Assembly (NCBI RefSeq): GCF_030389965.1
Contig: NZ_CP128399.1
Coordinates: 496,001-560,000, forward strand
Length of the DNA stretch: 64,000 bases
Direction: 5' to 3'
DNA from: Candidatus Chlorohelix allophototropha
GTDB taxonomy: Bacteria > Chloroflexota > Chloroflexia > Chloroheliales > Chloroheliaceae
Position numbers and translations under genes: made by a program. Positions 33,529 to 37,696 of this stretch are shown piece by piece (the stretch's first letter is position 1; every line of letters starts with the position of its first letter). The notes under the pieces are model-generated. The model ran no database searches. It was not told the origin of the DNA and was given only the letters and a program-made list of their open reading frames with translations.

Positions 33529-33642
33529 TAACTAACCTGTTGCTCTACTACGGACTAGCTACTCTCCGAATAGTCCCCGTTGCCATCTAATTATACCGCT
33601 TTGGGTGGTGAATCACAACATACATGACATAATAATATAAAA

Positions 33643-33664
33643 AGGGACACTATAAAGCATCCCT
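33643..33664 (-). terminator. Terminator of the ferredoxin-thioredoxin gene
   Basis: A 5-bp stem (33660-33664 with 33643-33647) with a 12-base loop is followed by TTTTT on the leftward strand. It is 15 bases past the stop of the 33679-34479 gene. Confidence 0.6.
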
Positions 33665-33678
33665 CTCACGTATGATTT

Positions 33679-34479
33679 TTATCGACGAGGGGGTTTGTTG
33701 CGTAAATTAATGTTAGGGCGCATCAACTCAGGTCGCACTTTAGGCGGTAGGCTTTTTGCTGGCGGCTGCTCAGCTGAAGCTTCAACGGGTTTTGCCTGTC
33801 CTTGTTGCGCTTCAAATTGCGCTACCGCTTGCATGACTCGATCCAGCCTGTTTTTTAAGGTGGCGCGATCTACTGCGCCCACTATCATGTCGGCAAGCTG
33901 ACCACGATACATAATTATCATGGTTGGTATACTCTGAATGCTGAATTGGGAGGCAATCATCTGCTCTTCATCCACATTTACTTTCACAAACTTCATGCGT
34001 CCCTGATATTCTTTTGCGAAAGCATCAACAATGGGAGCTATTTGTTTGCAAGGTGCACACCATTCAGCCCAGAAATCTATAAATACTGGGATGGTGCTAT
34101 CCACCACTTCCGCTTTAAAGTTATTAACTGTCACAGCAATGGGTTTTAGGGCTTCTTCTTCTTCAACACGGCGCGCTGCTTCGGCTTTTTCTTTCATTTG
34201 CTCCATGAGCTTGTTTCGAGCTTCCATTGCCTGCTCAGCGTTCAGTTCACCATCTAGCTCTTTTTGCATTATGTCCAATTCAACCAGTGATGGCGCAAAT
34301 TTAAGGGCTACGGCATCACAAAAATTAAGGCAGCGCCCCGGACAAGTACCGCATTTCTCAGGTTCTACCCAAACTCGCAGGGCAGTTTTATCGACATGTA
34401 AAGCGTCATTTGGGCAAGCATTTGCAGCAAAACAAGTTGGTGCACAGTTACATTTGTTATGATTTACCAGTACAGGCAT
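33679..34479 (-). CDS. Ferredoxin-thioredoxin fusion protein
   Basis: This 266-residue protein joins two redox modules. Residues 1-60 carry eight cysteines (10, 12, 16, 22 and 43, 46, 50, 54), with CP at 22, a layout suited to two [4Fe-4S] clusters but with unusual spacing. A charged helical linker (about 65-112) follows. Residues about 115-220 are a complete thioredoxin with FWAEWCAPCK (active Cys141 and Cys144) and the cis-Pro loop SIPTMI. The tail is Pro/Ala/Gln-rich. It probably passes electrons from low-potential donors to the thioredoxin disulfide; this is inferred. The gene for a small membrane protein lies 40 bases upstream. Confidence 0.85.
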   Translation of the reverse strand: MPVLVNHNKCNCAPTCFAANACPNDALHVDKTALRVWVEPEKCGTCPGRCLNFCDAVALKFAPSLVELDIMQKELDGELNAEQAMEARNKLMEQMKEKAEAARRVEEEEALKPIAVTVNNFKAEVVDSTIPVFIDFWAEWCAPCKQIAPIVDAFAKEYQGRMKFVKVNVDEEQMIASQFSIQSIPTMIIMYRGQLADMIVGAVDRATLKNRLDRVMQAVAQFEAQQGQAKPVEASAEQPPAKSLPPKVRPELMRPNINLRNKPPRR

Positions 34480-34519
34480 AACTTTACTCTTTCTTTATAG
34501 TTACGAGTTATAAATTATT

Positions 34520-34741
34520 TTAATTGCTTAAATAGAATAGTATTGCTACGCCACTGACCACAATTGCCCCGGCAAAATATACTAAAGCCAGAGCTAGTGC
34601 AGGTAACCCTTTTAATATGTGGGTATCGGTCAGTAAAGCGCGGCGTGTAATTAACGCCATAAAGCCCCGGTAATAACCGAAGGTAGCTACCAACGCAAGA
34701 ACTATTAATGCAAATATTCCGGCTAGATCAATTCTTATCAT
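34520..34741 (-). CDS. Small two-segment membrane protein
   Basis: This 73-residue protein has two hydrophobic segments (about residues 6-24 and 46-70) joined by a short basic loop. I do not recognise a family. It precedes the ferredoxin-thioredoxin gene by 40 bases on the same strand and is likely co-transcribed, so it could act as a membrane partner or anchor, which is only an inference. Confidence 0.7.
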   Translation of the reverse strand: MIRIDLAGIFALIVLALVATFGYYRGFMALITRRALLTDTHILKGLPALALALVYFAGAIVVSGVAILFYLSN

Positions 34742-34936: not shown

Positions 34937-37696
34937 TTATAAACCGATTAATTGTTTTAAAACTTTAACGTCGATATTTTGGCGTAATAAAGCGGCGAGT
35001 TTGTCATACTCCGCATCGTAGCTTACGGTTTTGAAGCGCTTTATTTGAACTGAACTATTAGTGATGCCTTTGCGCTTAAGCAGGTTGCTCAGGATTGCGT
35101 GGCGCAAATTGTCGTTAGAGAATATGCCGTGTAGGTAAGTGCCCCATACATTCCCGCTCTGATTAATGTACCCGTCCGGCTGGTCAATCTCATCACTTTC
35201 GCGCCGATTCAGGCGTACTACATGGTTTAACTGCTCATTGGTAGATTCGTTGTCTAATGGGTAAGTGCGTCCGCTATGTATTTCGTAACCGGACACCGTA
35301 ATACCGTTAAGACCTTCAAATAAGCCGTGTTCAACCTCAATGCGACCTGAAACCTTCTTGGTGGTTTTTTCTACGGCGAAAATGGTGGTAACGGGTAAAA
35401 GTCCTAGTCCCGGTACGCTGCTCACGCGCCCTTCAATGTGGTCTGGGTCTTCAATTCGTATCCCTAGCATTTGGTAACCACCGCAAATGCCTATTACGTT
35501 TGCACCGCTATTGGCAAGATTTCGGATTGCATTTCCAAGCCCACTTTGCTCTAGAAATTGCAGGTCGGCAATACTTGCTTTTGTTCCCGGCAAAATTACA
35601 ACATCAGGGCTACCAAGGTCAAAGAGTTCTCGCACATACCGCACTTCAACGCCTTCTTCCATTTCCAGAGCGTCAAAGTCGTCGAAGTTGGCTATATGCG
35701 GCATCAGGATAACGCATATATCTAACTGGCGATTTACACCATCGCGGTCAATTTGTTTATTCGCCTCGTTATTGCGGAGTTGGTTAGAGGGAGTATTGGG
35801 CTTATCTTCCAACGCCACACTATCCTCTTCGGCGATTTTTATATCACGGAAAAATGGTATTACTCCTAACACCGGTTTGCTAGTTTTCTTTTGCAGGTAC
35901 TGAACCCCTTCTTCAAACAAGGTCGGGTCGCCTCTGAACTTGTTTATGATCAGTCCTGCTACCAGTTCGCGCTCATCTTCTTCTAGCAATTCAAGCGTGC
36001 CCACGATGCTGGCAAAAACGCCACCGCGATCAATATCTGATACCAGCAAGACCGGGGATTTTGCAATCTTGGCGACATGCATGTTTACTATGTCTGAATC
36101 TTTCAGGTTCATTTCAACGGGGCTGCCAGCACCTTCTATTATTACCAGATCATGCTCTGCCCGTAATTTCTCCAGCGAATCACGCACAATCGTTTCAAGT
36201 TCTTGCTTGTTTCTGTAATATTCGCGCGGCGAGAGACTTTCTCGCGCTTTGCCCAGTAAAACAAGCTGCGCAATCGTGTCACCCTCTGGCTTTAGCAAGA
36301 TCGGATTCATATAAATGCTCGGTTCAACGCCGCTTGCTTGCGCCTGAACCGCTTGCGCCCGCCCGATTTCCCCGCCCTCTTTGGTAACATAGCTGTTATT
36401 TGCCATGTTCTGCGCTTTGAAGGGCGCTACACTCAAGCCTTCCTGCGCGAAGATGCGACAAAGCCCGGTTGCCAGCGTGCTTTTACCCACTGAAGAAGCT
36501 GTGCCTTGTATCATCAAAGTTTTAGCAAGTTTAGTGCGTTTGCCGCTCATTTGCGCCGGGGCAACCAACTTGACCGCATGTGTCGAATTCCAGCTTTGCA
36601 ATTCTGTCACCAGTTTGTCGGTAGCCTCATGGGTGCTTACAGCTACTCTTATATATTCGGGCAATCCGAAGCTGGTACAATCCCGTACTATCAGCTTATG
36701 TTTTAGCATTTGAAGCCGACATTCAGAGGAATTCCCAACTTTAATAAGTAAGAAATTAGCTACGCTCGGTACAAACTCAGCCTCAATTGAGCGGAGTTTA
36801 TCCAGTAAATATGCCTTATTTTCCTGCAAGTGGAGTTTGCACTCCTGAATGTAATGGGTTTCAGTCAACAGGTGTCGCCCGATTTCCTGCGCGAAAGCGT
36901 TGACACTCCAAGGGATGCGGATGTTGTTGAGCGCTCTGCCAACTTCTTTTGGCGCAATTGCATAACCCAAACGCAAACCCGGCAAGGCAAATTCTTTGGT
37001 CAGTGAGCGCACCAGCGTAATATTATCACCCCAGAGAAGGTCAATTGAGTTCCATTCAAAAGTTCCTGCATCACAAAGCGAAATATAAGCCTCATCTAAC
37101 ACTAACATTGCGCCTACGTCACTGGCAGCTTCCATTATAGAAGTAACTTCATTTTCGCTAAGCACCTGTCCGGTTGGGTTGTTGGGATTACAGGCGAAGA
37201 CCAGTTTTGGGCGTTTTTCCTCGATAAGGCTAATCACTTCGCCCAAATCGGGTTTGAAGCCGTTCTCAGCCCGCGCACAATATTCCAGCACTTCCGCGCC
37301 ACACACCCTTGCTGCTGCGCTATATTCCCCGAAAGTAGGACCAATTACCAGCACGCTATCACCGGGGTCAAGGTAGGTTTGCGCTAACAGGTAAATTAGC
37401 TCTACCGCACCATTTCCGGCAATCAGGTTATCCGGCATCAGCTTTAATTGGCTGGCAATTGCTTCGCGCAAGCCTGCTGCACGCGGGTCAGGGTATTGAT
37501 CAAGACGTACACTGGCAAGCGCTTCCTGAATTGAAGGAGGAGGGCCATAGGGATTAATATTTGCGCTCAGGTCGATAACTCCCTCCGGTTTTACCATATT
37601 GCGGGAGAGTTCGGCGTAATCCACACCGCCATGCGGTACTGCTTGCAAACCCTCCACCCGGGTACTCAGGCGAGGGGTGCGCTGTGTGAAAGCCAT
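34937..37696 (-). CDS. Fused CobD-like aminotransferase and cobyric acid synthase
   Basis: This 919-residue protein carries two cobalamin enzymes in one chain. Residues about 20-370 are a PLP class I/II aminotransferase of the CobD (threonine-phosphate decarboxylase) type: [28 protein letters not shown] and [15 protein letters not shown] with the PLP lysine. Residues about 390-900 are CobQ, which amidates adenosylcobyrinate side chains: [18 protein letters not shown]-loop, [23 protein letters not shown], a GATase domain with the Cys in [10 protein letters not shown], and YLHGIF. The CobD half would supply aminopropanol phosphate for the nucleotide loop. No cobalamin riboswitch is visible upstream. 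Confidence 0.93.

Follow-up and report, generated by a model that had tools for sequence, protein, structure and literature searches.

The window analysed here, a stretch of 64,000 nucleotides (C1:496001-560000), belongs to a five-contig genome of 6,086,194 bases, in which contigs C1, C2 and C3 measure 2,961,161, 2,453,413 and 375,274 bases. The published genome of Ca. Chlorohelix allophototropha L227-S17 comprises two chromosomes of 2.96 and 2.45 Mb, a 375-kb chromid and two plasmids (PMC10972752). An open reading frame on the minus strand of the window (33679..34479) starts with ATG and encodes 266 amino acids followed by a stop codon, and homologues of the same architecture exist in other genomes. 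All parts of the product are encoded on this strand: a predicted ferredoxin-type Fe-S domain (aa 1-62; 34294..34479), a linker modelled by AlphaFold2 with helices at residues 65-75 and 81-110 (aa 63-112; 34144..34293), a thioredoxin domain (aa 113-216; 33832..34143) with the redox motif CAPC (aa 141-144; 34048..34059), and a variable tail rich in Pro and Ala with low model confidence (aa 217-266; 33682..33831). The protein contains ten cysteines in total, eight in the N-terminal part (positions 10, 12, 16, 22, 43, 46, 50 and 54) and two in the WCAPCK sequence of the thioredoxin (141 and 144). The preliminary description had read the N-terminal spacings as C-x-C-x3-C-x5-CP and C-x2-C-x3-C-x3-C, which is exactly what we found. 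It had also placed a 73-residue two-helix membrane protein 40 bases ahead of the fusion, and an open reading frame of this length with two hydrophobic stretches indeed lies there (34520..34741, minus strand); no Pfam family exceeded its cut-off for this protein. Just 3΄ of the fusion gene is a terminator-like hairpin of 12 pairs (33640..33667, minus strand), which is a weak call because the pattern scan found four such sites where 2.2 were expected.

The thioredoxin domain was the only part of the protein to exceed the cut-offs in Pfam and NCBIfam (PF00085, aa 114-213, E = 7.9e-29, 100.1 bits against a cut-off of 23.5; TIGR01068, 113 against 96.8), and likewise the only part for which Foldseek and VIA-align returned matches, the latter with Z of about 20 to thioredoxins. 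Its AlphaFold2 model had pLDDT values of at least 93 per block, and the blocks covering the linker (aa 61-120) had values of about 82-93. The domain shares with ordinary bacterial thioredoxins the full fold, the WCxPC motif, Asp135 and cis-Pro185; the CxxC motif was found in 19 of 20 aligned fusion homologues, the cis-Pro in all 20 and the Asp in 19. Unlike those thioredoxins, the fusion carries an N-terminal extension of 110 residues that includes the Fe-S domain, and it forms a separate branch in the thioredoxin tree.

We then compared the N-terminal cysteines among the 20 homologues. C10, C16, C22, C43, C46, C50 and C54 were invariant in 20/20, whereas C12 was a cysteine in only 5/20; accordingly, the eight-cysteine region followed by a full thioredoxin in the preliminary description stands as an architecture and as a count for the window protein, with seven and not eight conserved Fe-S cysteines. 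Across the homologues, the first motif is C-x5/6-C-x5-CP, with small shifts in length, and the second is C-x2-C-x3-C-x3-C. The pattern had been called non-standard for a ferredoxin, and the canonical CxxCxxCxxxCP motifs of dicluster ferredoxins are indeed missing. Pfam listed no Fer4 family for the window protein or for its N-terminal segment, nor was the fusion locus among the matches of a Fer4 search of the source genome; automatic annotation would therefore miss the Fe-S domain. However, standalone proteins of 59-76 residues in four genomes (G315, G217, G237 and G230) share the seven-cysteine pattern, and several of these standalone proteins exceed Fer4 cut-offs. When the profile of the fusion N-domain was aligned with that of the standalone ferredoxins by hhalign, the probability was 99.4 and the E value 5e-22, with the seven cysteines in register. 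The alignment score of 88.4 was compared with those of 60 controls, in which the cysteine columns were fixed and the remaining columns shuffled (mean 17.7, maximum 35.1); the similarity therefore exceeds what the cysteines alone would give.

Because the N-terminal domain is homologous to these standalone ferredoxins, it is very likely an Fe-S domain, as judged from sequence comparison. We filed it as a divergent homologue of the Fer4 clan and not as a Fer4 member, as it aligns with ferredoxins but, unlike dicluster ferredoxins, falls below the Fer4 cut-offs and has a thioredoxin attached. In 7Fe ferredoxins, the absent cysteine is that of the first motif, and the same holds for the fusion when its seven cysteines are aligned with those of dicluster and 7Fe ferredoxins. 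By analogy, the seven ligands suggest one [4Fe-4S] cluster plus one three-cysteine site that may hold a [3Fe-4S] or labile cluster; in the window protein, C12 could complete the latter. Ferredoxins of the 7Fe type are more frequent in aerobes (PMC7039249). The AlphaFold2 model was of low confidence in this domain and gave no reliable view of a beta-alpha-beta ferredoxin fold or of how the two domains pack; the pLDDT values were 50-63, and 55.5, too low for use, when the domain was modelled alone. Weak matches to AprB at aa 1-60 in NCBIfam and the PDB were below cut-off and equalled or bettered by those to other ferredoxins, so that membership in this family was rejected.

A search for the same domain order in other genomes showed that 19 of the 158 genomes in the class carry the fusion architecture; full-length homologues were present in all five Chloroheliaceae genomes (in one of them split at a contig edge). 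In a survey of 400 Chloroflexota genomes, eight matched, four from the same class and four from outside it, where G169 and G184 carried the fusion. One limited scan of genome contigs, on which the reach beyond Chloroflexota rests, returned 14 loci from Chloroflexota only, Sphaerobacter, Thermomicrobiaceae MAGs and the 'Candidatus Chloroheliaceae' genome L227-5C among them. No relatives were found in viral contigs or plasmids. The mean pairwise identity among the 20 aligned homologues was 51.1% for the Fe-S segment and 50.9% for the thioredoxin; the linker (35%) and the tail (18.5%) are less conserved. In a tree of thioredoxin domains that included 19 standalone thioredoxins, all fusions fell on one side of a single branch in 94% of bootstrap trees; those of G007 and G184 formed long branches, whose exact placement is unsure. 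The simplest reading of these sequences is a single origin of the fusion. The preliminary description had allowed for a random fusion with no conserved cysteines, and this, like an artefact, is excluded by the architecture kept in 20 homologues with seven invariant N-terminal cysteines and by the single-origin tree. The fusion protein is an old, conserved design, and we are nearly certain that it is a genuine fusion that arose once and that its N-domain is a true homologue of ferredoxins. One carrier (G028) appears to be Sphaerobacter thermophilus, a cultured heat-loving species; this obligate aerobe has two replicons and 3,993,764 bp (PMC3035262). Since one of the genomes with the fusion matches an obligate aerobe, a role specific to photosynthesis was rejected as the general function. 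We found no published account of such an Fe-S/thioredoxin fusion in the open-access literature, which is weak evidence of absence, and the main text of the Ca. Chlorohelix allophototropha genome paper does not mention thioredoxin (PMC10972752). The fusion is an apparently undescribed combination of known parts.

The gene neighbourhoods were also compared. A two-TM gene lies beside or near the fusion in 5/5 Chloroheliaceae (with a third gene between them in 3/5), but in none of the 36 other genomes searched, other fusion carriers included. The possible membrane partner of the preliminary description is consequently a neighbour kept within this family and is excluded as a general feature outside it. 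No gene neighbour was common to the fusions across the class. In single cases, the fusion of G184 is near a thioredoxin reductase (TrxR) gene and a thioredoxin-fold gene, and the standalone ferredoxin of G217 adjoins a rhodanese-fused pyridine-nucleotide disulphide oxidoreductase. In G315, also a single case, the unfused ferredoxin is part of a same-strand run (Fur-Trx-HesB-like-YgaP_TM-ferredoxin-zinc ribbon), which ties ferredoxin and thioredoxin to the same process, probably redox or iron stress.

We next considered the possible electron sources in these genomes. TrxR-family proteins were detected in 25 out of 25 genomes searched, including every searched fusion genome. In the source genome, two TrxRs exceed the cut-off, and each retains the NADPH motifs GGGDTALEE and HRR. 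A third TrxR-type protein of 420 aa (L112, G000:C2:1523400-1525500), glutaredoxin-like at its N-terminus and TrxR-like in the rest, lacks HRRxxxR and keeps GGGNSAAE. Given these retained motifs in all three proteins, the presence of FFTR in the source genome was rejected. In the Thermomicrobia-type fusion genomes, the TrxR-family proteins are below the TIGR01292 cut-off and are thus putative NADPH-TrxRs. FTR (PF02943) was absent from 157 of the 158 class genomes, the source genome included, and G007 is the only one with a homologue of the FTR beta subunit. Because FTR is missing from nearly the whole class, with or without the fusion, the phyletic pattern is uninformative as to whether the fusion replaces FTR. 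Of the 19 class carriers, the ten of the Thermomicrobia type (families f7 and f13) all lack the 2-oxoacid:ferredoxin oxidoreductase (POR); the remaining nine, which include the anoxygenic phototroph with a type I reaction centre, encode it. Finally, the fusion of G007 has lost the CxxC of its WCxPC motif while keeping all seven Fe-S cysteines, and a normal thioredoxin gene is located two genes downstream.

We tentatively favour, at somewhat less than an even chance, the reading that the fusion is an NADPH-reduced thioredoxin whose Fe-S domain acts in sensing or docking. The fusion is a cytosolic two-domain redox protein of Chloroflexota, in which a long helix joins the ferredoxin-type domain, with a predicted four-cysteine [4Fe-4S] site and a three-cysteine site with an optional fourth cysteine, to a presumably active thioredoxin. 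The thioredoxin part would perform ordinary thiol-disulphide exchange and would presumably receive its electrons from NADPH-thioredoxin reductase. The Fe-S domain would not supply the electrons that reduce the CxxC; it may instead dock the thioredoxin onto a redox or Fe-S client, or act as a sensor that adjusts it according to oxidant or iron status. This reading is based on the conservation of the seven cysteines and of the CxxC, the homology to ferredoxins and the thioredoxin tree, on the ubiquity of TrxR-family proteins and near absence of FTR, on the ten carriers without POR, one of them matching an obligate aerobe, on the loss of the CxxC with retention of the Fe-S cysteines in G007, and on the neighbourhoods of G184 and G315, the gene run of the latter being known from one genome only. 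Against it count the sub-threshold reductases of the Thermomicrobia-type genomes, the lack of a neighbour common to the class, the low confidence of the Fe-S domain model, and the option of a low-potential electron donor in the nine POR-bearing carriers.

This last point bears on the proposal in the preliminary description that the fusion could pass electrons directly within one protein. A low-potential donor (ferredoxin, reaction centre or oxidoreductase) would then reduce the Fe-S domain, which would hand the electrons on to the CxxC attached to it and so take the place of FTR or TrxR. Such a relay would fit the covalent fusion of an electron carrier to a disulphide protein, the two cluster sites, from which two electrons could come, the absence of FTR from the class except in G007, and the presence in Ca. 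Chlorohelix of a type I reaction centre along with POR (PMC10972752). However, all ten cysteines are accounted for, so that no spare pair could form an FTR-like disulphide beside the cluster. Established routes from ferredoxin to thioredoxin need either FTR, with its special cluster and disulphide, or the flavin enzyme FFTR (PMC9025218, PMC12796991). The fusion resembles the FTR catalytic subunit only in the concept of linking Fe-S chemistry to thioredoxin, having no FTR domain, no active-site disulphide and no PF02943 match. In NTRC and FFTR systems, thioredoxin is either fused with the source of its electrons or supplied by it (PMC9025218), whereas Pfam finds no flavin or NADPH domain in the fusion. 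The carriers without POR, the TrxR-family proteins in every searched fusion genome and the fate of the CxxC in G007 likewise argue against a relay, which we regard as rather unlikely; its strong form, a flavin-free, FTR-free single chain that reduces protein disulphides from Fe-S clusters and in Ca. Chlorohelix links thiol regulation to light, is unlikely. Beyond being possible, neither the electron relay nor the membrane partner is supported.

The fusion might also be a factor for Fe-S assembly or repair, with the thioredoxin holding client cysteines in the reduced state and the ferredoxin-like domain as the donor of electrons or of a cluster. This idea, which we consider improbable, is consistent with the G315 run, where genes for an unfused ferredoxin, a thioredoxin, a Fur-family protein and a protein like the A-type carrier HesB occur together, and with the possible lability of a three-cysteine site; however, that arrangement was seen in a single genome, and none of the genes for Fe-S assembly recurs beside the fusion itself. 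The lack of a Fer4 family at cut-off for the window protein, the unusual cysteine spacings and the low model confidence of the N-domain could instead point to a zinc or structural domain, or to redox disulphides, in place of an Fe-S site. This is very improbable given the homology, with seven cysteines aligned, to proteins above Fer4 cut-offs, at a score far above those of the shuffles with fixed cysteines. The means by which thioredoxin systems take up electrons from Fe-S chemistry, or respond to it, are known through few enzymes (FTR, FFTR and NTR). The fusion makes a possible coupling of Fe-S status and disulphide reduction testable in one protein, and it spans a type I reaction-centre (RCI) phototroph without FTR and an apparent cultured obligate aerobe, Sphaerobacter thermophilus.

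Two separate observations were made in the course of the analysis. The HesB-like gene of G315 (L089:6669-6953, minus strand) contains an in-frame TGA (GMG-U-NGP) and is a candidate selenoprotein gene of a known family. In the window itself, positions 34937-37696 on the minus strand encode another fusion, a 919-aa protein that combines a class I/II aminotransferase with a CobQ-type enzyme (CbiA plus GATase_3).
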